Part shown: positions 3,175 to 55,445 of the stretch, piece by piece
Numbering within the stretch: the first letter of the stretch is position 1
Layout of the letters: each line of letters starts with the position of its first letter
Origin: Thermoflexibacter ruber
Lineage (GTDB): Bacteria; Bacteroidota; Bacteroidia; Cytophagales; Thermoflexibacteraceae
DNA: 64,000 nt
NCBI RefSeq assembly: GCF_900113045.1
Contig: NZ_FONY01000007.1
Location: 66,755 to 130,754, forward strand
Direction of reading: 5' to 3'
Made by a program: the position numbers and the translations under genes
Notes under the pieces: generated by a model
Seen by the model: only the letters and a program-made list of their open reading frames with translations
What the model was told of the DNA's origin: nothing
Databases searched by the model: none

Positions 3175-4515
3175 ATGTCAGAAACTATGAATCGCCGTGA
3201 TTTTATTAGAACCACCTCTTTAGTTGGTACAGGGGCATTGCTCGCTCCCTCTCTTTCTGCTATGCCTATTTTCAAAGGCTCTCCTAATGAAAAAGTAATT
3301 ATAGGAGCCATGGGAACAAACAGTCGTGGCTTTTTTGTGGCACGTATGTTTGCCAAACTGCCCAATGTTGAGATAGCCTATGTTTGTGATGTAGATAGTA
3401 AAGTTTTGGAGAAAACCATTGCAGACATTGAGAAAGTTTCAGGCAAGCGTCCCAAAGGCTATACAGATGTTCGCAAGATGTTGGAAGAAAAAGACTTAGA
3501 TGCCATTATGGTTGCTACTCCTGACCATTGGCACGCTCCTGCGGCTCTCATGGCTGTCAAAGCAGGTAAGCACGTGTACTTAGAAAAACCCTGTTCGCAC
3601 AATCCCGCAGAAGGCGAAATTTTAGTAGAGGCAAGTGCCAAGTACAACAAACTTATTCAGATGGGGAGTCAGCGTAGGTCTTTCCCAAAAGTAATACAAG
3701 CCATGCAAGAACTCAAAGAAGGCATCATTGGCAGACCTTACTTTGCAAAAGGCTGGTATGCCAATGCTCGAAAACCTATAGGAGTAGGCAAAGTAACTGC
3801 TGTTCCAAGCCATATTGATTTTGAGCTATGGCAAGGTCCCGCTCCTCGCAGAGAGTTCAAAGATAACCTTATTCACTACAATTGGCATTGGTTTTGGCAT
3901 TGGGGAACAGGCGAAGCCCTAAACAATGGCACACATGAATTGGACGTAATGCGTTGGGGTTTGGGCGTAGATTTCCCTACCCAAGTCATATCCGCAGGAG
4001 GTAGATTTGCCTACAATGACGATTGGGAAACACCAGATACCCAAACCGCTACTTTTAACTTTGCCAATAACACCGCCATTACTTGGGAAAGTAGAAGTTG
4101 CAACGGCTACCCTGTCGAAGGTGCAGGGCGAGGCGTAATTTTTTATGGTGAAAAAGGCACAATAGTTATTCCGGGAGGCGATGCTTACAAAGTATATGAT
4201 TTAGACAATAAACTTGTCAAAGAGGTAAAAACCGAGTTACAAGAAGCACAGGCTACCAATACTATGGGTATGGGAGAACTTTTAGATAGCTTGCATCTAA
4301 AAAATTTTGTGGAAGCTATCAGAGGAAAGGAAAAATTAACCTGCCCTATTTCCGAAGGACATAAGTCCACCCTCTTGCCACAGTTAGCCAATATTGCCTT
4401 CCGAGTAGGTAGAACGCTTTATTGCGACCCTACCAACGGGCATATCCTGAAAGACAAAAAAGCCATGAAACTTTGGAAAAGAGATTACGAAAAAGGCTGG
4501 GAAATGAAACTATAA
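3175..4515 (+). CDS. Gfo/Idh/MocA family oxidoreductase with Tat signal
   Basis: NAD(P)-dependent sugar or sugar-acid oxidoreductase family. The N-terminus has a twin-arginine signal, MNRRDFIRTTSLVGTGALL, so export in folded form with its cofactor is expected. A Rossmann fold follows, with GAMGTNSRG in place of the classical GxGxxG, then the family motif YLEKPCSHNPAE, where the Lys is the conserved catalytic/cofactor-contacting residue of the EKP motif. A C-terminal alpha/beta domain contains NWHWFWHWGTGEALNNGTHELD, with a conserved His in the active-site region. The length (446 aa) fits exported Bacteroidota members. It lies between the SusCD pair and an unknown exported protein on the same strand, suggesting that it modifies a substrate brought in by the locus. 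The exact sugar is unknown. A start at residue 5 (MNRRDF) is also possible. Confidence 0.9.
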   Translation: MSETMNRRDFIRTTSLVGTGALLAPSLSAMPIFKGSPNEKVIIGAMGTNSRGFFVARMFAKLPNVEIAYVCDVDSKVLEKTIADIEKVSGKRPKGYTDVRKMLEEKDLDAIMVATPDHWHAPAALMAVKAGKHVYLEKPCSHNPAEGEILVEASAKYNKLIQMGSQRRSFPKVIQAMQELKEGIIGRPYFAKGWYANARKPIGVGKVTAVPSHIDFELWQGPAPRREFKDNLIHYNWHWFWHWGTGEALNNGTHELDVMRWGLGVDFPTQVISAGGRFAYNDDWETPDTQTATFNFANNTAITWESRSCNGYPVEGAGRGVIFYGEKGTIVIPGGDAYKVYDLDNKLVKEVKTELQEAQATNTMGMGELLDSLHLKNFVEAIRGKEKLTCPISEGHKSTLLPQLANIAFRVGRTLYCDPTNGHILKDKKAMKLWKRDYEKGWEMKL

Positions 4516-45813: not shown

Positions 45814-47796
45814 TTGGACTCTTCCTACAGACGATATATCATTCAGGTAGTTACTGTTTTAGTAGCTGTAGTATTCCTAACTAAATTGTTTTTCCTCCAA
45901 GTTCTTGATGAAAACTACAAGTTGGAGGCGGCAGGTAATGCTATACGAAAAATCATAGAACACCCTGACAGAGGACTTATCAAAGACCGTACAGGCAAGC
46001 TAATCGTTGCGAATATGCCTGTGCATGACATTTACATTATTCCCAAAGATTTTAAGATAGAGGATACTCTTCGCTTTTGCGAATTATTTGATTTGACCAA
46101 GGAAGAACTCATTAGTAGATACCAAAAACTAAGGAAAAGTAAAGACTATTCTTATTACAGCCCCATGCTTTTTATTAAGCACCTTCCTGAAAGCCAATAT
46201 CTTAAAATAGCGGATAAATTAGATGAGTTTGCAGGTTTGGAAGCAAGAGTACGTACTTTGAGGCAATATCCCCATCAGAGTTTGGCAAATGCCTTAGGCT
46301 ATGTAAGTGAGATAGACGAGGCTATGCTAAAAAGAGATACTTCCCAATATTACAAACAGGGAGATATGATAGGAAGAACAGGCATAGAACTTAGCTACGA
46401 GCAGGAATTAAGAGGCGTAAGAGGCATAAAGCATGTAATGGTCAATGCAAGACATATTATCAAAGACCGTTTCGAGGAAGGCAGACATGATATAGACTCC
46501 GAAGTAGGCGATAGCCTGATTTCCTCTATTGATTTGGATTTGCAACAGTTTGGCGAAAAACTCATGAGTCATAAGATTGGAAGTATCGTAGCGATAGAAC
46601 CTGCCACGGGCGAGATTTTAGCTATGGTTTCTGCACCTTCTTATGACCCTAATGCACTGATTGGCAGCGAGAAAGAATTTACAAAGGAGTACTTCAAATT
46701 AGCGAGTAATAGACTAAAACCGCTATATAACCGTCCTGCTATGGCTTTCTATCCACCGGGGTCTATTTTTAAAATCGTCCAAGCATTGATAGGTTTGCAA
46801 GAAGGCGTGATAGACTCTGCTACTACCCGCATTGCTTGTGTCCAAGATGTAGTAAAGTGCCACGGTCACCCTTCCCCCTTAGATGTAAAAAGTTCTATTC
46901 AGTACTCGTGCAATCCCTTTTATCTCAAAGTTTTCAACCGCATTATTATCCAAGACAAGTCTAAGGACTACTACGAAGATACCAAAATTGGCTTGGCAAA
47001 GTGGCATGACTACGTTACCAAATTTGGTTTTGGGCATAAATTAGGTTCTGATATATTAGAAGAAAAAGCAGGGAATATGCCTTCCGTAGCTTACTATGAC
47101 AAGCGTTTTAAAGGTAGGAAATGGAAATTTGGGAATATCTACTCTTTGAGCATCGGGCAAGGGGAAATGGGCGTTACTCCCTTACAAATGGCAAATATGG
47201 CAGCTATTATTGCTAACAGAGGATATTATTATATCCCACACATTATCAAAGACATCAATGGGCAAGGAGCTTTGCCCAAGTTCAGAGAAAAGCACGAAAC
47301 GGGCATCAAAAAAGAGTACTTTAATTTGATAGTCAATGCCATGGCTGATGTGGTAAGGGCAGGTACGGCACGTAGAGCGCAAGTACAAGGCATTACTGTC
47401 TGCGGAAAAACAGGAACTGCACAAAACCCGCATGGTGAAGACCACTCTGTATTTGTGGCTTTTGCCCCCAAAGATAACCCCAAAATCGCGATTGCTGTTT
47501 ACGTAGAAAATGCAGGTTGGGGTGGCTCATGGGCAGCACCTATTGCAGGTTTGATGATAGAAAAATATTTGAAAGGCTCTATAGACGACCCCGCAAGACA
47601 GCAACTGATAGAGCAGATTAGTCAAAAAGATTTTATTACGCCTATAGAAAATAAAATTAGAAAGATAGAAGCAAGCAAAGAAGCCGCAGCCACCGCTACT
47701 CGTCGTACCAATAATGCAGACAAAGGCAAAGAAAAAGAAAGCAAATCCAGCGAGCCTGTTATCTCCTCGGCTAACAAAGGAGATGGAGGACATTAG
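45814..47796 (+). CDS. mrdA: Penicillin-binding protein 2 (cell-elongation transpeptidase)
   Basis: A 660-residue class B PBP that cross-links peptidoglycan during cell elongation. One N-terminal membrane helix lies at about residues 9-30 (IIQVVTVLVAVVFLTKLFFLQV), then the dimerisation domain (PDRGLIKDRTGKLIVANMPVHDIYIIP). The transpeptidase domain has the nucleophile motif Ser317-I-F-Lys320, the SxN motif Ser365-C-N and Lys532-Thr-Gly, all intact. A Lys/Glu/Ser-rich tail of about 40 residues closes the protein. The start is a TTG at 45814 (LDSSYRRYII), with a possible promoter at 45702. rodA, mreC and mreD, its usual operon partners, are not adjacent; 3' of it lies a 42-bp repeat and an insertion sequence. 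Confidence 0.94.
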   Translation: MDSSYRRYIIQVVTVLVAVVFLTKLFFLQVLDENYKLEAAGNAIRKIIEHPDRGLIKDRTGKLIVANMPVHDIYIIPKDFKIEDTLRFCELFDLTKEELISRYQKLRKSKDYSYYSPMLFIKHLPESQYLKIADKLDEFAGLEARVRTLRQYPHQSLANALGYVSEIDEAMLKRDTSQYYKQGDMIGRTGIELSYEQELRGVRGIKHVMVNARHIIKDRFEEGRHDIDSEVGDSLISSIDLDLQQFGEKLMSHKIGSIVAIEPATGEILAMVSAPSYDPNALIGSEKEFTKEYFKLASNRLKPLYNRPAMAFYPPGSIFKIVQALIGLQEGVIDSATTRIACVQDVVKCHGHPSPLDVKSSIQYSCNPFYLKVFNRIIIQDKSKDYYEDTKIGLAKWHDYVTKFGFGHKLGSDILEEKAGNMPSVAYYDKRFKGRKWKFGNIYSLSIGQGEMGVTPLQMANMAAIIANRGYYYIPHIIKDINGQGALPKFREKHETGIKKEYFNLIVNAMADVVRAGTARRAQVQGITVCGKTGTAQNPHGEDHSVFVAFAPKDNPKIAIAVYVENAGWGGSWAAPIAGLMIEKYLKGSIDDPARQQLIEQISQKDFITPIENKIRKIEASKEAAATATRRTNNADKGKEKESKSSEPVISSANKGDGGH

Positions 47797-47800
47797 CTAT

Positions 47801-47842
47801 AAAAATACCAAACTTCCCTACTTCTCACTGATAATTCGCTTA
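47801..47842. repeat. 42-bp direct repeat, left copy
   Basis: Identical base for base to 52141-52182. It begins 5 bases after the mrdA stop and its last base is the first base of the insertion sequence's left inverted repeat. Flanking bases differ on both sides. The two copies bracket about 4.3 kb of accessory DNA. Confidence 0.9.
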
Positions 47843-49050
47843 ATATTAATAGACAAATTGTAGCAAGTTTTTGAAAATGAGGAGCTAAAGATAGACTTTT
47901 GAGTTTTCCACAACATAAAAGTAACCTTTATGACTCCTTATATAAACAAATTTAGTACACAATATAAAGAAATTCGCCCTATTGTAGTTAAAAATTTATT
48001 TGTTTTCATAGCCTGCCTTATTCAAGGTAAAACAGTAAGCCTTTATACACTCAGAGATGAGGTGGGGAAAATCACGGAAAAGTACAAAACTACATCTGGT
48101 GGTCATTACAAAAGATTAAGTCGCTTTTTACAAGCTAATTCCAGCAGTAAACTTTGGTATTATGTATTACAGTATGGGATTTCTTTGCTCCAGAAAAATA
48201 TCCGTTTCTGTTATTTGGACGCTACAGAGTGGGAAATAGGGAGCTTTAAGCGGATCGCCGCCCGACTACACATTCTTACTTTGGCTGTGGACTATCAAGC
48301 GTAGCTATTCCTATTTATTTTCAGATTTATGAGCATAAAGGGGTGCTTTCTGAAAAAGAACGAATTAAATTTTTGAAAGTAGCTTGTGCTTACTTCCCTT
48401 TACAAAAAACTATCATTATTGCAGACCGAGAATTGATAGGCAAAGCTTGGTTTGCAGAAATAGAAGAATTAGGGCTTCATTTTATTTGTCGGGTCAGGCG
48501 GGGTATGTTCACAAACCAGTTGATAGCAGGGCGTAGCTATGAAAAATTGCAAGCAAGAGCGCGTAAAAAGAAAAAAGCCTCTGCCTTAGTTCACAGTGAA
48601 GGAAGACAGTTTAGACTAACAAACAAGACAATACAAGCAATGAAGAATGTATTTACATTACTAATGTAGTTGATAAACGTCAAATCCCTAATCTATATCG
48701 TTTAAGATGGAAAATAGAATTACTTTTCAAACATTTAAAAACGAATGAGTACAATTTGGAAGATTTGAGAATCAAGGATTTAAATAAAATTAGGTTGATT
48801 TTTGCAATGCTTACCCTTGCGTATATTTTTGCTATCTTGACTGCTCTTAATGAGCGAAAGAATAAGCCAATGAAGCAAAACAAATATGCTGACCAAAGAT
48901 ATTTTGATATGGAATCGGTCTTCAGACAAGGGCAATCTTTATGCAAACAAAGGTTTATTTCCTTAAAAGGGTTTCTTTGTTTAGTACTATTTTTAGAAAA
49001 CTCTATTTATTGTTATCAACCTATCAATTTAATTTTTGTCCATTAATATT
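47842..49050 (+). mobile_element. Degenerate IS4-family insertion sequence
   Basis: About 1.2 kb bounded by near-perfect inverted repeats: AATATTAATAGACAAA (47842-47857) and the complement of AATATTAATGGACAAA (49035-49050), 15 of 16 matching. It contains a broken DDE transposase (next entry). No direct target duplication is visible outside the ends: the left flank is the end of the 42-bp repeat, and the right flank is the inside of a metallopeptidase gene. The element therefore sits at a rearrangement junction. Confidence 0.75.
47930..49046 (+). pseudogene. IS4-family DDE transposase, broken by two frameshifts
   Basis: Three frames together give one transposase. Frame 1 (47930-48304) has the N-terminal domain and the first catalytic Asp in CYLDATEWEIG. 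A one-base loss near 48300 moves the reading to another frame, which continues VAIPIYFQIYEHKGVLSEKER and holds the second Asp in IIADRELIGKAW. A further shift near 48636-48654 leads to the third frame, NVVDKRQIPNLYRLRWKIELLFKHLK, with the IS4 signature Y-x2-R-x3-E-x6-K and the catalytic Glu. The C-terminus to 49046 is intact. With both frames corrected it would be about 370 residues, usual for this group. It cannot make active transposase as it stands. Confidence 0.85.
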
Positions 49051-49594
49051 TAAATGATTATACTTGATATGACCTAACTCGTGGAGAATGATTGTCTTCT
49101 GCTCCTCTTCTTTCATCTGTTCTATCAAAGGCTTTCCTATCTCTATGACTTGCTTGAAAGGCTTAATTCCCATAGCAAAAGCATTTTTAAGGTCTTTGTT
49201 CAAGATGCCCGCCTCAATATTATTTAGTCCTGAGTAGGTTCGTAGCCAGTGAGTAAGTTCAGTATCTACTTTATAATCACTACTGATATAGCGATAGAAC
49301 ATAGGTTTTATGATAAAATCTGGAAGGAAGTAAAGAAAGAGATAAAACTGCAACTATAGCTTTAATTTCAGCAGCTGTACCAATTTCATATATCAAAGAG
49401 CCAACATAAAAAACTACAAAAAATATAACCCAATAAAATAATATTTCTTTTAAAAACTCACTCCAGCGAAATAAGTTAATGGCTTCTTTACGTTTTTTGC
49501 CTGCAAGTATGGTATTAATACTCCATGGAATTATTATCTTGATTAAAGCAGCAAATAAAAAACTTAGTCATATAGTTTTTAAAAGCATATTCAT
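49024..49594 (-). pseudogene. M48-type membrane metallopeptidase, broken and truncated
   Basis: From an ATG at 49594 the frame reads MNMLLKTI, then a TGA at 49568-49570 (Trp expected), then a membrane protein part (FLFAALIKIIIPWSINTIL, EILFYWVIFFVVFYVG). Around 49320-49345 the coding switches frame into DFIIKPMFYRYISSDYKVDTEL and on to NAFAMGIKPFKQVIEIG and the zinc site TIILHELGHIKYNH. The gene then runs into the right end of the insertion sequence: the last eight codons before the stop at 49024 come from it. The third zinc ligand, normally about 60 residues further on, is lost. Three separate lesions make an active peptidase very unlikely. A second fragment of the gene is not seen in the window. 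Confidence 0.7.
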
Positions 49595-49648
49595 TGTTAG
49601 ATGTTTTTTAACTTGCAATATTAAAAATAAAAAGAATAAGGAGTTTTA

Positions 49649-49876
49649 TTAGCCTTCAGGCAGTCTAATGTCCCACATGTCTGTATAGCAGTAAGAAATG
49701 GAAAAATGACAGTATTTAATTGGCGCACCTAATTCTTTCAAATATTCAATATAGTTTTGAGCGGTGCGTTTACATACACCTAATTTTTCTGCTAATTGTT
49801 CAGGGCTCCCTGTGCTTTTGTGCTTGATAAGGTAATGCAAATAAGATAAAGTTTTTAATTTATCGTTAGCTTTCAT
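49649..49876 (-). CDS. Small helix-turn-helix protein
   Basis: A 75-residue protein: LKTLSYLHYLIKHKSTGSPEQLAEKLGVCKRTAQNYIEYLKELGAPIKY. This is a winged-helix (HTH_11/DeoR-like) pattern, with the recognition helix CKRTAQNYIEYLKEL. It ends in CYTDMWDIRLPEG with no ligand domain. It lies just upstream, on the same strand, of the ruined metallopeptidase gene. It may be a local regulator whose target was the membrane peptidase, in a layout like BlaI/BlaR. That tie is a guess. An imperfect hairpin sits 25 bases upstream of its start. Confidence 0.75.
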   Translation of the reverse strand: MKANDKLKTLSYLHYLIKHKSTGSPEQLAEKLGVCKRTAQNYIEYLKELGAPIKYCHFSISYCYTDMWDIRLPEG

Positions 49877-49900
49877 AGGTTTGGTAGTTTAAAGCAGGCT

Positions 49901-49956
49901 AATGCTAATAAGGGGTAATAAATCTTTATGAAAAGAATTACTCTCCTTTTAGCATT
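49901..49956. promoter_or_regulatory. Dyad-symmetric hairpin upstream of the HTH gene
   Basis: AATGCTAATAAGGGGTAAT (49901-49919) opposes ATTACTCTCCTTTTAGCATT (49937-49956); AATGCTAA and GTAAT blocks pair. It sits between the beta-barrel gene and the HTH gene (-), starting 25 bases upstream of the HTH start. It could be an operator for autoregulation or the terminator of the beta-barrel gene. Confidence 0.4.
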
Positions 49957-50022
49957 TAAGACAAATATAGCAAAGCTTGCTGATATAAATAAAAAAAATG
50001 ATGGTTTCTTGTGAGAGAAAAC

Positions 50023-50592
50023 TTATAATTTTACTCCAAACTTTAAATTAAAACCAACCAAAATATCTGTATTACTATATGGTTGCATAATAGCTTTCAT
50101 ACCCAATAAATATCGAGTTCCTACGCTGATTTCATGCTCAACGATGATACTAAATCCCGTAGTTCTACGAACTTCAGTTGTGATATTTTCTATAACAGTA
50201 AAAGTGTTTAAATCACTGTCATAGATGGAGCGTCTTCCTTGTGAGGCGGTGATATTGGCATAAATACCTGTTAGCCCTGTACCTATTTTAAAGTTGTGTG
50301 TACGATGATTTCCAAAAGGCGACAAAAACACGTTCAAATCTGTTCCTACCGCATTGACCTGTCGCAAAAAAAGTGTATTGTCATAGCCTACTCCTATATA
50401 AATGGCTACAGATGCACTTACCCACTGAGTTATCTTTTTAGTAAGCTCACTTTCAAAGCGATACATCTGGTAATCTCCAGTTCCTAAGACAGCACGCCCT
50501 ACCCCTAATTTGAGGTCAGTCGTTAAGACTTTTTCTTGGGCAAAAGCAAAATTGCTTAATAGCAACAAATATAAAATAAATAATTTTTTCAT
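50023..50592 (-). CDS. Outer-membrane beta-barrel protein (hypothetical)
   Basis: A 189-residue protein with a good signal peptide (MKKLFILYLLLLSNFAFAQ). The mature part alternates strands with aromatic girdle residues and ends in a strand: DLKLGVGRAVLGTGDYQMYRFE, WVSASVAIYIGVGYDNTLFL, TGFSIIVEHEISVGTRYLLGMKAIM, DILVGFNLKFGVKL. About eight strands are expected, so a small barrel of OmpW/OmpA-like type. Within the island it is followed by the HTH gene and preceded by a lipoprotein gene 84 bases away. Function unknown. Confidence 0.75.
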   Translation of the reverse strand: MKKLFILYLLLLSNFAFAQEKVLTTDLKLGVGRAVLGTGDYQMYRFESELTKKITQWVSASVAIYIGVGYDNTLFLRQVNAVGTDLNVFLSPFGNHRTHNFKIGTGLTGIYANITASQGRRSIYDSDLNTFTVIENITTEVRRTTGFSIIVEHEISVGTRYLLGMKAIMQPYSNTDILVGFNLKFGVKL

Positions 50593-50676
50593 GGTGTTAA
50601 AAAAAAAGTAGTAATCAAGATATGAGGTTAAAGTACATACATAGAGATTACATTTTCTATATATGTACTTTGAGTA

Positions 50677-51789
50677 TTAAAAGAATATTCTAAAAGAAAA
50701 GATAGAACCGCCTCCATATTCTGTATTTGAGGCTTCGCCTCTCCAAACTGTACTTTGATTTGCGTGTTCGTCCCAAGTACTTCTATTTATTGTTCTTGAT
50801 ATAGTCGAGGTAATCCCACTATTAGGAGGCGCATATGATACGGAAAAAGTTAATGTATCTAATCCTCCTCCATCATATTCTATCCAAGTATAGGTAATTG
50901 TTTGCCCATAGCTTGGAAGCCATGTAAACAAAAAGTTTCCAAAATAACAACCATGTTGCCCATTAGAGTGTTGTTCTGAGATACAAGTTCTTGATGCGTT
51001 GTATATGGCATCAATCACACTTGTAGGAGTACCTCCATTAGGACGTACAGAAACTACAAGTCTCATTTCCAGATTACTATCCCACCATGCCTCAAGTGCG
51101 CTTGGATTGGGTGCATATATTCTGCCAAGATACTCTGCACTATTTTCTAAACGTCCGTTTGATAGATTCCTATTTGTTGATAAAACTAAGTTTTCAAGTA
51201 AATTTCCGTTTTCATCAGTACGTTCACTTTCATTCAATACAACTACAGGCTCATTAGGTACTTTTTTAGCATCTAAAAAATGTATATTACCTTTATAGTC
51301 AATTGCTTTTAGTCGTGATATTTCTTTATCACTTTTTCCTTGTGGTATGATGACTACAAGTGGGATATGATTTTCTGTATCCCAACTTTCGCAGTTTATA
51401 GGTACAGAAAGTTGAAATTTAGGTATTTTAGTAGCTTGTGCATGAATATTTTTGTTCTTAAGCATCAATTTTTCTCCTATTGATTTTCCATCTTTGGTTT
51501 TTATGTTTTTTAAATGATTGTAAAGAATATCATAATCTCCATCAAATTGCTTTAATGCTTCATCTTTAATAATTTTACGAATCTCAGGGTCATTCATTTG
51601 TGCCGCAAGCGAGAAAGCTACCTTTTCAAGATTCTGATTAATTTCATCATAATCAAAACTTTTGTACTCAAGCCTCATATTAGTATTTATTAGACTATTA
51701 TCACTTTCAGGAGAAATATTTACCCCTTTATTACACGCAGAGAAAAAAGCAATGCAAAATATTGATACAAAAATTTGCAACTTTCGCAA
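50677..51789 (-). CDS. Lipoprotein of unknown function
   Basis: A 370-residue lipoprotein: RKLQIFVSIFCIAFFSAC gives the modified Cys near residue 19. A TTG at 51789 is the only start that keeps the whole signal; ATGs further up are out of frame or meet a stop. The middle part has ENHIPLVVIIPQGKSDKEI and PNEPVVVLNESERTDENGN. The end is rich in Gly, Ser and aromatic residues (WIEYDGGGLDTLTFSVSYAPP, GGGSIFSFRIFF), as in a beta domain. Two cysteines near residue 285-298 may form a disulfide. I do not recognise the family. An 8-bp tandem repeat lies 15-61 bases upstream of the start. Confidence 0.72.
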   Translation of the reverse strand: MRKLQIFVSIFCIAFFSACNKGVNISPESDNSLINTNMRLEYKSFDYDEINQNLEKVAFSLAAQMNDPEIRKIIKDEALKQFDGDYDILYNHLKNIKTKDGKSIGEKLMLKNKNIHAQATKIPKFQLSVPINCESWDTENHIPLVVIIPQGKSDKEISRLKAIDYKGNIHFLDAKKVPNEPVVVLNESERTDENGNLLENLVLSTNRNLSNGRLENSAEYLGRIYAPNPSALEAWWDSNLEMRLVVSVRPNGGTPTSVIDAIYNASRTCISEQHSNGQHGCYFGNFLFTWLPSYGQTITYTWIEYDGGGLDTLTFSVSYAPPNSGITSTISRTINRSTWDEHANQSTVWRGEASNTEYGGGSIFSFRIFF

Positions 51790-51803
51790 AAAAACTTTGC
51801 CAG

Positions 51804-51850
51804 AAAATTTGGAAATTTGGAAATTTGGAAATTTGGAAATTTGGAAATTT
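51804..51850. repeat. 8-bp tandem repeat upstream of lipoprotein gene
   Basis: Five perfect copies of GGAAATTT (51811-51850) follow a partial copy (AAAATTT, 51804-51810). The tract lies just upstream of the minus-strand lipoprotein gene starting at 51789. Eight is not a multiple of three, so a change in copy number would also shift any reading frame that crosses it. The remainder of the 51790-52223 gap holds the 42-bp repeat and no gene that I see. Confidence 0.85.
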
Positions 51851-52140
51851 TCCTTTTAATTCATTCAACATAAAATTTCAAGTTTTAGATTAATAAATAA
51901 GTCAAATGAGTATTAATGTAGCTACATGATTATATTAGGCAAACAAGCAATAATTATTACTTATATGTCTGATTTCACGCAAAGGAAAATAAAGAGGATG
52001 CAAAAAACTTGCATCGGTAGTTAAAAAATGTTAAATATTGTTTAGAAAATTTGATATTAATTTCTCCTTCTACCCTACTACATTTCCAATTTAATCTTTT
52101 CCCAAAACAAATTTTAAATCTAATTTTTACCCCCCTACAA

Positions 52141-52182
52141 AAAAATACCAAACTTCCCTACTTCTCACTGATAATTCGCTTA
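52141..52182. repeat. 42-bp direct repeat, right copy
   Basis: Identical to 47801-47842. It lies 41 bases before the ATG of the S41 protease gene at 52224, so it is in that gene's leader or promoter region. No -33/-7 promoter pattern was found within it. Confidence 0.9.
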
Positions 52183-52223
52183 CTTTGTTTTTCTAATTTC
52201 ATCTTATTCTTTAACTTAAACTT

Positions 52224-55200
52224 ATGAGAAAAACGTTATTTTTCATTACTTGGCTTTGTTGCCACTGTCTTTTTGCCCAAACTAACCCCAATTGGTTTAG
52301 GTATGCGGCTATTTCGCCTGACGGCACTAAAATCGCTTTCACTTTCAAGGGGGACTTGTATGTAGTGCCTACGGCAGGGGGAACAGCACAGCCACTGACT
52401 TTTCATGAGGCGCATGACTTTATGCCTGTTTGGAGCAAGGACGGCACGAAGATAGCCTTTGCCTCTGACCGCTTTGGCAATTTTGATGTCTTTGTGATAG
52501 ATGCTTTAGGCGGAGAACCTACTCGCCTCACCTATCATTCCAATTCTGAGTATCCTTATACTTTTAGTGCTGATGACAAATTTGTACTTTTGGGAGGACA
52601 GCGATTAGATGCGGTTAGTCATCGTCAGTACCCTACTGCCTCTCAACCAGAGCTTTATCAAGTAGCTGTTAATGGGAGCAGGGTGCAACAGGTTTGGACT
52701 GTACCAGCCGAGGACGTACAGGTGAGCAAGAATGGGCAATTTTACATTTACCACGACAAGAAAGGGGGAGAAAATGCTTGGCGAAAGCATCACCTCTCTG
52801 CTATTGCCCGAGACATTTGGATTTTTGACAAAAATACGGGCAAGCATCAAATGCTGACTTCTTTTGCAGGAGAAGACCGCAACCCCGTTTTTTCTCCCGA
52901 TGGGAAAAGCATTTATTACCTCAGCGAGGAGAGTGGAAACTTCAATGTTCATTCATTGAATATTCAGAATCCTTCTCAAAAACAGCAAATTACTTCTTTT
53001 AAACCGCACCCTGTTCGCTTTTTGAGCATAGCTAATGAGGGTACACTTTGCTTTACCTACGATGGAGAAATTTACACCCTCAAAGCAGGGGGAAAACCTA
53101 CAAAAGTAAATATCACGATTCGTACCGAAGGGAAAAAAAACAATCAGCAAATCATCCCTATCAGTGGGAATATCAGCGAGATGTCCGTTTCTCCTAATGG
53201 AAAAGAAATAGCCTATATCGTCAGGGGGGAGGTTTTTGCCTCTTCAGTAGAAGGAGGAGTAACCAAACGCATTACCAATACGCCTGAGCAAGAACGCTTT
53301 GTGAGTTTTTCTCCTGATGGCAATGCCATTATGTATGCCAGCGAACGCAACGGCTTGTGGAGCATTTATGAAACTAAAAAAGTAAAAAGCGATGAGCCAT
53401 ATTTTTATGCTTCTACTTTGCTGAAGGAGGAGGCACTGATTAAAAATCAGAATGAAAACTACCAGCCCCAATATTCTCCTGACGGAAAGGAAGTTGCCTT
53501 CATAGAAAACAGAACTTCGCTCAAAATCCTCAACCTCGCTTCTAAGCAGGTACGTACCTTGCTTACTCCCAACGAGTTATACTATATGTCAGACGGCGAC
53601 CAATATTTTAGCTGGAGTCCTGACGGAAAGTGGATATTGGCAGAGTACAATCCCGTCATGGCTAACTCGGAAATTGTGCTAATACCAAGTGACGGCAAGG
53701 GCAAAATGGTAAACTTGACCGAGAGCGGCTATTCCGATTTTCGCCCTAAGTGGGTAAGTGAGGGCAAGCAAATGCTTTGGTTTAGCGACAGAGATGGCTT
53801 GCGTAGCTATGCCAACAGTGGTGCGCGCCAGTCAGACGTATATGCTACATTTTTTACCCAAGACAGTTGGGATAGGTTCAGAATGAGCAAAGAGGACTAT
53901 GCCTTGCTTAAGGAAATAGAGGAAAAAGCTAAGAAAGACAAGGAAAAAGAAAGCAAAGACAAGAAAACAGAAGTAAAAAAAGATAGTTCTTTAGTCATTG
54001 ATTTAGAGGGAATTAAAGATAGAAAAGCCCGCTTGACTATCCACTCCTCTGCTTTGAGCGATGCAGTTTTGTCCAAAGATGGAGAAACGCTCTATTATTT
54101 AGCAAGATTTGAAAAAGGCTTAAATCTTTGGAGTACCAAATTGCGAACCAAAGAAACCAAAATGGAAATAGAATTAGGAGCAAACTTTGGCAGGCTGACT
54201 TGGGACAAGGAAATGAAAAACTTGTTCTTATTAGCTGATGGGAGCATATCCAAAATCAATCCTGAGTCCAAAAAGAGAGAATCGGTAAGTATCAGAAGCG
54301 AACTAAACCTCAATGCCGCTGCGGAACGCCAATATATGTTTGACCATGTGTGGAGGCGTACTAAATCCATGTTTTACATTTCCAATTTTCATGGAGCAAA
54401 CTGGGACGAGCTGAAGAAAGTCTATGAAGCCAAGTTGCCTGCGATAGGTACAGGTTACGAGTTTGCGGAGTTGCTTTCTGAGATGTTAGGAGAGCTAAAT
54501 GTTTCGCACTCAGGGGCAAGCTATCGCTCTTTTTCTCCCAATGAGGACAATACGGCTTCTTTGGGCATTTTGATAGATTATGACTATACAGGAGAAGGCG
54601 TAAAGATAGCAGAAATTCTTAAAGGTAGTCCCTTGGATAAAGAGAACATCAAGGTTCGCAGTGGAATGATTATAGAGCAAATAGACGGCGAAGCCCTCAC
54701 TGCCAACATAGATTATGCTGCCTTCCTCAATCGCAAAGCAGGGAATTTTACTGCCTTGCAAGTCTATGACCCCGATACTAAGACTCGCCAGCAAATTACC
54801 GTCAAACCTATTTCGCTTGGAGAGGAAAATGCTTTGCTTTACATGCGTTGGGTTCGCAAAAACCAAGAAGAAGTAGAAAAACTCAGCAAGGGGCAGTTGG
54901 GTTACGTACATATACCCGGCATGAGCGATGCACCCTATCGCACTGTCTATGAGGAAGTCATGGGAAAGTACCACGATAAAAAAGGCATCATCGTAGATAC
55001 ACGCTTCAATGGCGGTGGCGACCTTGTTTCTGACTTAGCCATGTTTTTCACAGGGAAAAAATTTTTAGACTACGCCATAGAAAGCCGCTCAGTGGGCTAC
55101 GAACCAACTTTCCGTTGGACAAAACCAAGTTTGGCAATGTTCAACGAATCCAATTACAGTGATGGACATTGCTTTGCTTGTGGTTACAAGGACTTAGGTA

Positions 55201-55445
55201 TTGGCAAAACCGTAGGAATGCCCGTCCCAGGTACGTGTAGCTTTGCAGGTTGGGAACTCTTGCAAGACGGTTTTACGCGCTGGGGTGCGGTGCCTGTCAG
55301 TGCCAAAAACAGCAAGGGCGAATGGTTAGAAAACAACCAAACAGTACCTGATTTTCAAGTAAAAAATGAGCCTGAGCAGATTAGCAAAGGCAAAGACCAG
55401 CAGTTGGAAAAAGCAGTAGAGGAGTTGTTGAAGGTGGTGAAGTAA
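52224..55445 (+). CDS. Tricorn-type S41 serine peptidase
   Basis: A 1,073-residue exported protein in the tricorn family, which degrades peptides. The signal is MRKTLFFITWLCCHCLFAQ. Residues about 25-560 are WD-like beta-propeller blades with the repeated SPDG phrase (ISPDGTKIAFTFKG, WSKDGTKIAFASDRFG, FSPDGKSIYYLS). A Lys/Glu-rich linker lies near 565-590. Then come the C1 region (AAAERQYMFDHVWRRTKSMFYISNFHGANWDELKK), a PDZ-like module (DYTGEGVKIAEILKGSPLDKENIKVRSGM) and the C2 part with VDTRFNGGGDLVSDL and the expected nucleophile in NESNYSDGHCF. The length fits the family. The gene stands alone after the accessory island; a hairpin follows at 55467. Confidence 0.92.
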   Translation: MRKTLFFITWLCCHCLFAQTNPNWFRYAAISPDGTKIAFTFKGDLYVVPTAGGTAQPLTFHEAHDFMPVWSKDGTKIAFASDRFGNFDVFVIDALGGEPTRLTYHSNSEYPYTFSADDKFVLLGGQRLDAVSHRQYPTASQPELYQVAVNGSRVQQVWTVPAEDVQVSKNGQFYIYHDKKGGENAWRKHHLSAIARDIWIFDKNTGKHQMLTSFAGEDRNPVFSPDGKSIYYLSEESGNFNVHSLNIQNPSQKQQITSFKPHPVRFLSIANEGTLCFTYDGEIYTLKAGGKPTKVNITIRTEGKKNNQQIIPISGNISEMSVSPNGKEIAYIVRGEVFASSVEGGVTKRITNTPEQERFVSFSPDGNAIMYASERNGLWSIYETKKVKSDEPYFYASTLLKEEALIKNQNENYQPQYSPDGKEVAFIENRTSLKILNLASKQVRTLLTPNELYYMSDGDQYFSWSPDGKWILAEYNPVMANSEIVLIPSDGKGKMVNLTESGYSDFRPKWVSEGKQMLWFSDRDGLRSYANSGARQSDVYATFFTQDSWDRFRMSKEDYALLKEIEEKAKKDKEKESKDKKTEVKKDSSLVIDLEGIKDRKARLTIHSSALSDAVLSKDGETLYYLARFEKGLNLWSTKLRTKETKMEIELGANFGRLTWDKEMKNLFLLADGSISKINPESKKRESVSIRSELNLNAAAERQYMFDHVWRRTKSMFYISNFHGANWDELKKVYEAKLPAIGTGYEFAELLSEMLGELNVSHSGASYRSFSPNEDNTASLGILIDYDYTGEGVKIAEILKGSPLDKENIKVRSGMIIEQIDGEALTANIDYAAFLNRKAGNFTALQVYDPDTKTRQQITVKPISLGEENALLYMRWVRKNQEEVEKLSKGQLGYVHIPGMSDAPYRTVYEEVMGKYHDKKGIIVDTRFNGGGDLVSDLAMFFTGKKFLDYAIESRSVGYEPTFRWTKPSLAMFNESNYSDGHCFACGYKDLGIGKTVGMPVPGTCSFAGWELLQDGFTRWGAVPVSAKNSKGEWLENNQTVPDFQVKNEPEQISKGKDQQLEKAVEELLKVVK

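Follow-up and report, generated by a model that had tools for sequence, protein, structure and literature searches.

In P. fluorescens SBW25, an insertion sequence (IS), IS481, that lacks a target duplication and lies between two duplicate segments has been observed directly (PMC11708052). Here we describe a locus in Thermoflexibacter ruber that probably has a related origin. Within the window (the whole 64,000-nt stretch of DNA that was analysed), two identical repeats stand on either side of an IS relic and several accessory-type genes. Our preferred explanation, which we consider probable, is that the pair is the scar of an IS rearrangement and does not delimit an integrated element.

The repeat pair and its borders

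Sequence comparison confirmed that the 42-mers at 47801-47842 and 52141-52182 are identical, as an earlier note on this DNA had claimed. The gene content that it gave for the interval between mrdA and the tricorn/S41 gene was also correct: an IS4-type relic, a cut M48-like peptidase gene, and HTH, barrel and lipoprotein genes. The features of the locus are as follows.

45814-47796, plus strand: mrdA (penicillin-binding protein 2), with Pfam Transpeptidase and PBP_dimer domains
47801-47842, plus strand: left repeat copy, identical to 52141-52182, starting 4 bp past the mrdA stop
47842-49050, plus strand: IS4-like insertion sequence, transposase split into three frames, no target-site duplication
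49024-49353, minus strand: M48/M56-like metallopeptidase fragment with HELGH (PF01435, 5e-9)
49649-49876, minus strand: HTH regulator (PF08279, 3e-9), with paralogues on contigs C91, C92, C94 and C97 of G000
50023-50592, minus strand: outer-membrane beta-barrel-like protein, with a signal peptide and a barrel-like sequence by reading; no Pfam family
50677-51789, minus strand: lipoprotein, DUF3103-like (PF11301, 6e-8)
51805-51850: array of 5.8 tandem 8-bp units (AAATTTGG), at the lipoprotein gene’s 5′ end
52054-52223, plus strand: S41 gene leader, poor in G (three in 170 nt), with the right repeat copy inside it
52141-52182, plus strand: right repeat copy, part of that G-poor leader; the first 29 nt belong to a continuous G-free run
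52224-55445, plus strand: tricorn-like S41 protease gene

The left copy was said to end exactly where the IS begins. It does abut the IS, but its 42nd base (47842) is already the first base of the element; counted without that base, which matches by chance, the repeat is 41 bp long (47801-47841 and 52141-52181). No third copy of the 42-mer occurs in the window (0 expected in shuffles), and none was found with up to three mismatches in the whole 5.5-Mb genome (99.6% complete, a draft of 123 contigs). The pair represents the only copies in this genome. A 30-nt core of the repeat, also with up to three mismatches, had no match in 58 relatives, and the repeat had no exact match in viral contigs.

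The earlier note held that the repeats bracket an inserted accessory island, and the right border argues against this. Positions 52054-52169 of the plus strand comprise 116 nt without a G, the longest such run on either strand of the window (the next is 65). The maximum in 30 simulated 128-kb sequences was 62, while other sequence of this genome that we examined contains G-free runs of up to 84 nt, so that long runs do occur, though rarely. The run begins 87 nt inside the supposed island and crosses 52140/52141 into the S41 leader. Because it spans this position, 52140/52141 is not an insertion border; were it a true junction between insert and host, both sides would need to be G-free by chance. 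The run is also not a trait of the lipoprotein module, since the upstream regions of three lipoprotein paralogues on contig C94 have G-free runs of at most 35 nt. We read the right copy as a native internal piece of the S41 gene’s leader, with no junction at 52140/52141. This argument rests on base composition and not on a homology match: alignment of the leader with the S41 upstream regions of relatives gave nothing beyond chance except one 16-nt match, which is just above shuffles and lies outside the repeat. The 116-nt stretch upstream of the tricorn/S41 gene is possibly an unstructured leader, and the search for RNA families gave no credible match at the locus.

The left copy has a different setting. 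It is wedged between the stop codon of mrdA, whose coding sequence is G-rich, and the first base of the IS, and G content shifts abruptly at its left edge. Given that the right copy lies within the G-free run and the left copy between G-rich mrdA and the IS, the left copy is the one that moved. We read it as a transplanted remnant of the S41 leader.

The insertion sequence and its missing target duplication

The window IS matches IS4-family models weakly, its transposase gene being fragmented by frameshifts. The NCBIfam model NF033591 (IS4 family) gave 8.5e-9 and 35 bits, far below the cut-off of 152, and Pfam DDE_Tnp_1 gave 2.6e-4. Terminal inverted repeats are present (AATATTAATAGACAAA at the left, AATATTAATGGACAAA at the right). 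This IS is a single copy in its genome. G009, a genome of the same family, carries many copies of a related IS whose transposase C-terminus is about 50% identical. Five of the right ends in G009 share ...TTTTGTCCAGTAATATT and then diverge. To derive the target duplication, 10 right ends and 15 left-end-like sites with their flanks were compared, yielding 8 left/right pairs. All eight pairs are flanked by exactly 9 identical bases, and the first base of the target site is A in seven of them and the last base T in six. From these right ends and 9-bp duplications, the window IS spans 47842-49050.

At this locus the two flanks of the IS differ (AATTCGCTT at the left and TAAATGATT at the right), and there is no target duplication. 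The left flank, which is the last 9 bp of the left copy, fits the A-N7-T pattern of the group’s target sites; it has the A...T shape common among them, as a genuine target would. The right end of the IS cuts the metallopeptidase frame just past the zinc motif HELGH, leaving the last 9 codons inside the IS. This frame is also frameshifted upstream and its other half is missing; no second copy of the cut gene was found in its own genome or in 7 relatives. The absence of a target duplication, together with the missing half of the peptidase gene, indicates that one IS flank was rearranged or replaced.

A side observation concerns the target sites in G009. On contigs C111, C139, C183 and C237, sequence around AGTGAAACT was seen both with an IS left end and with an IS right end, and the C183 version is apparently uninterrupted, beside a variant of the end-like motif. 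These varied states suggest either a repeated target or a mixture of strains.

A resident gene module and its neighbors

The HTH-barrel-lipoprotein module is resident, multi-copy chromosomal material and not phage or plasmid cargo. Contig C94 of this genome is built of repeated units and holds a lipoprotein paralogue (47% identical) in the same gene order. It has three lipoprotein/HTH units, and in two of these a barrel gene lies between the two genes. One further lipoprotein/HTH unit lies on C91, and HTH relatives also occur in the same-genus genomes G001 and G002. The segment showed no phage similarity, and its plasmid similarity was limited to weak DUF3103-type matches. We found no integrase or site-specific recombinase among the ORFs of the segment and no tRNA in the window. 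On contig C93 of G000, a relic 85 bp long (positions 277-361) is 91% identical to the beta-barrel gene and adjoins a transposase-like frame at the contig end, which suggests that module copies have been lost through IS-linked events.

The lipoprotein genes of this module family raise a separate point, of more biological interest than the repeat pair. Octanucleotide arrays (AAATTTCC, or AAAAATTC on C91) stand directly after the ATG in these genes, at 4157, 8664 and 10802 on C94, at 3308-3379 on C91, and at 6930 on C377 and 5034 on C145 of G002. The AAATTTCC array has no occurrence in the 5.5-Mb genome outside these lipoprotein genes. Its 8-bp unit is not divisible by three. Of the array genes on C94, one has an open frame (417 aa) and the other two meet a stop codon immediately past the array; the frame on C91 is also closed, and the ATG of the window copy has a stop directly behind it. 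Judged from sequence, the arrays look like a means of phase variation by strand slippage in a family of surface lipoproteins.

The genes outside the repeats are conserved in the genus with other neighbors. The mrdA orthologue of a same-genus genome is 70% identical and has a different downstream neighbor, and the S41 orthologue in the genus is 78% identical, again with other neighbors. An empty site was sought through these orthologues and none was found; mrdA and S41 are not adjacent in the relatives checked, whose proteins are about 70-78% identical. Likewise, neither an intermediate nor a pre-event gene order was seen in the nearest genomes, which stand at this same distance at the mrdA and S41 proteins.

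Origin of the repeat pair and comparison with known systems

Under the IS rearrangement that we favor, an IS4-type element would have made or captured a junction: its left end came to abut the S41 leader, which ran as far as the target AATTCGCTT, and beyond its right end followed a further copy of the stretch from the peptidase piece through the HTH, barrel and lipoprotein genes to the S41 leader. The result would be a tandem duplication centered on the IS. As one possible route, the leader of one sister chromosome and the peptidase gene of the other may each have carried an IS, and these two ISs recombined. Alternatively, transposition may have used ends on two sisters, or the IS may have been captured into the break that formed the duplication. 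All three routes would give the same junction and are indistinguishable here. The redundant upstream copy would later have been lost in a deletion that began 4 bp past the mrdA stop codon and halted 41 bp short of the IS. The left copy does start at this point next to mrdA, where such a deletion would have to halt; mrdA is probably essential. Since nothing but 41 bp is left of the upstream duplicate, the duplication, like the deletion, is a step that we infer. The repetition of the module family elsewhere in the genome counts in favor of this model. We suggest only tentatively, and think it rather doubtful, that the IS4-type element had an active part in how the duplication formed, beyond supplying homology for recombination; the locus would then be a natural fossil case of an IS-centered tandem duplication, of a kind recently proposed from laboratory evolution.

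The earlier note had offered three guesses about the pair, and the one that invoked a duplication at a rearrangement fits best. Its proposal that the repeats mark the ends of an integrated segment found no support, given the G-free run, the resident module and the lack of an integrase or tRNA. In the fullest form of that proposal, the copies would be the attachment-site repeats of an element that integrated here and whose integrase was lost afterwards, and the IS would later have deleted the left part up to the repeat. Long perfect direct repeats that are unique in the genome and surround accessory-type genes would suit such an element, and an IS-adjacent deletion would account for the missing peptidase half. 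Nevertheless, the segment has neither a recombinase nor phage similarity, the window has no tRNA, the cargo is a resident chromosomal module, the right border falls within a continuous G-free run, and the deletion would have had to halt exactly in the repeat; we regard this origin as quite unlikely. Slightly less unlikely is a one-step insertion of the IS with its neighboring genes between mrdA and S41, in which one end is the IS left end, placed by strand transfer, and the other was sealed when DNA repair went back into the target 41 bp upstream, by microhomology-mediated template switching. Such an event accounts for a left copy that stops precisely at the IS boundary and for a duplication of more than 9 bp, and the A run at the right joint (TACA/AAAAA) is in keeping with it. 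However, the inserted DNA would have to end by chance in 87 G-free nt beside a G-poor leader.

Some IS groups, such as IS1202-like elements, make target duplications well above 10 bp, which raises the question of whether the 41 bp is simply a target-site duplication of a family of this sort. We rejected this candidate as extremely improbable, since related ISs with the same ends give 9 bp in 8 of 8 pairs and the right copy lies 3.1 kb from the IS right end. The earlier note was thus right that plain IS insertion cannot explain 42 bp. It is also improbable, a little more so than the attachment-site origin, that the junction between mrdA and the 42-mer is a misjoin in the draft or reflects a mixed population. 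The assembly does consist of 123 contigs, C93 and C97 of G000 end inside a shared transposase-like frame, and G009 contigs break at IS copies; yet this genome has the IS and the segment only once each, which leaves no repeat there to provoke a misjoin. As for the suggestion that recombination between the copies would delete the island precisely, such an event may be possible in principle.

The IS rearrangement scar that we propose is of a known kind. It resembles the Dup-IS-Dup arrangement of SBW25 in having an IS without a target-site duplication, and the SBW25 duplicates were readily lost afterwards (PMC11708052); the SBW25 duplication, however, measures 60 kb, was seen in real time and involved IS481, whereas here only 41 bp of the first copy would remain and the element is IS4-type. 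The locus also shares with IS-adjacent deletions an IS end on a foreign flank, a lost target duplication and an interrupted gene whose half is missing, but a plain deletion makes no second 41-bp copy of sequence from 4.3 kb away. A DDE transposase that weakly matches IS4 models and the 9-bp duplications of the related group tentatively connect the element to the IS4 family; unlike an intact member, its transposase is frameshifted, with a best NCBIfam score far below the curated cut-off. In contrast to att-bounded integrative elements, the segment carries no recombinase gene and its repeats do not lie at both host junctions. Perfect direct repeats around accessory genes, then, need not mark an integrated island, and the base composition of the borders, together with the length of the IS target duplication, can separate an insertion from a duplication-deletion scar. 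If the IS-centered duplication is true, the locus would be a natural instance of a mechanism whose reports so far come from laboratory evolution.
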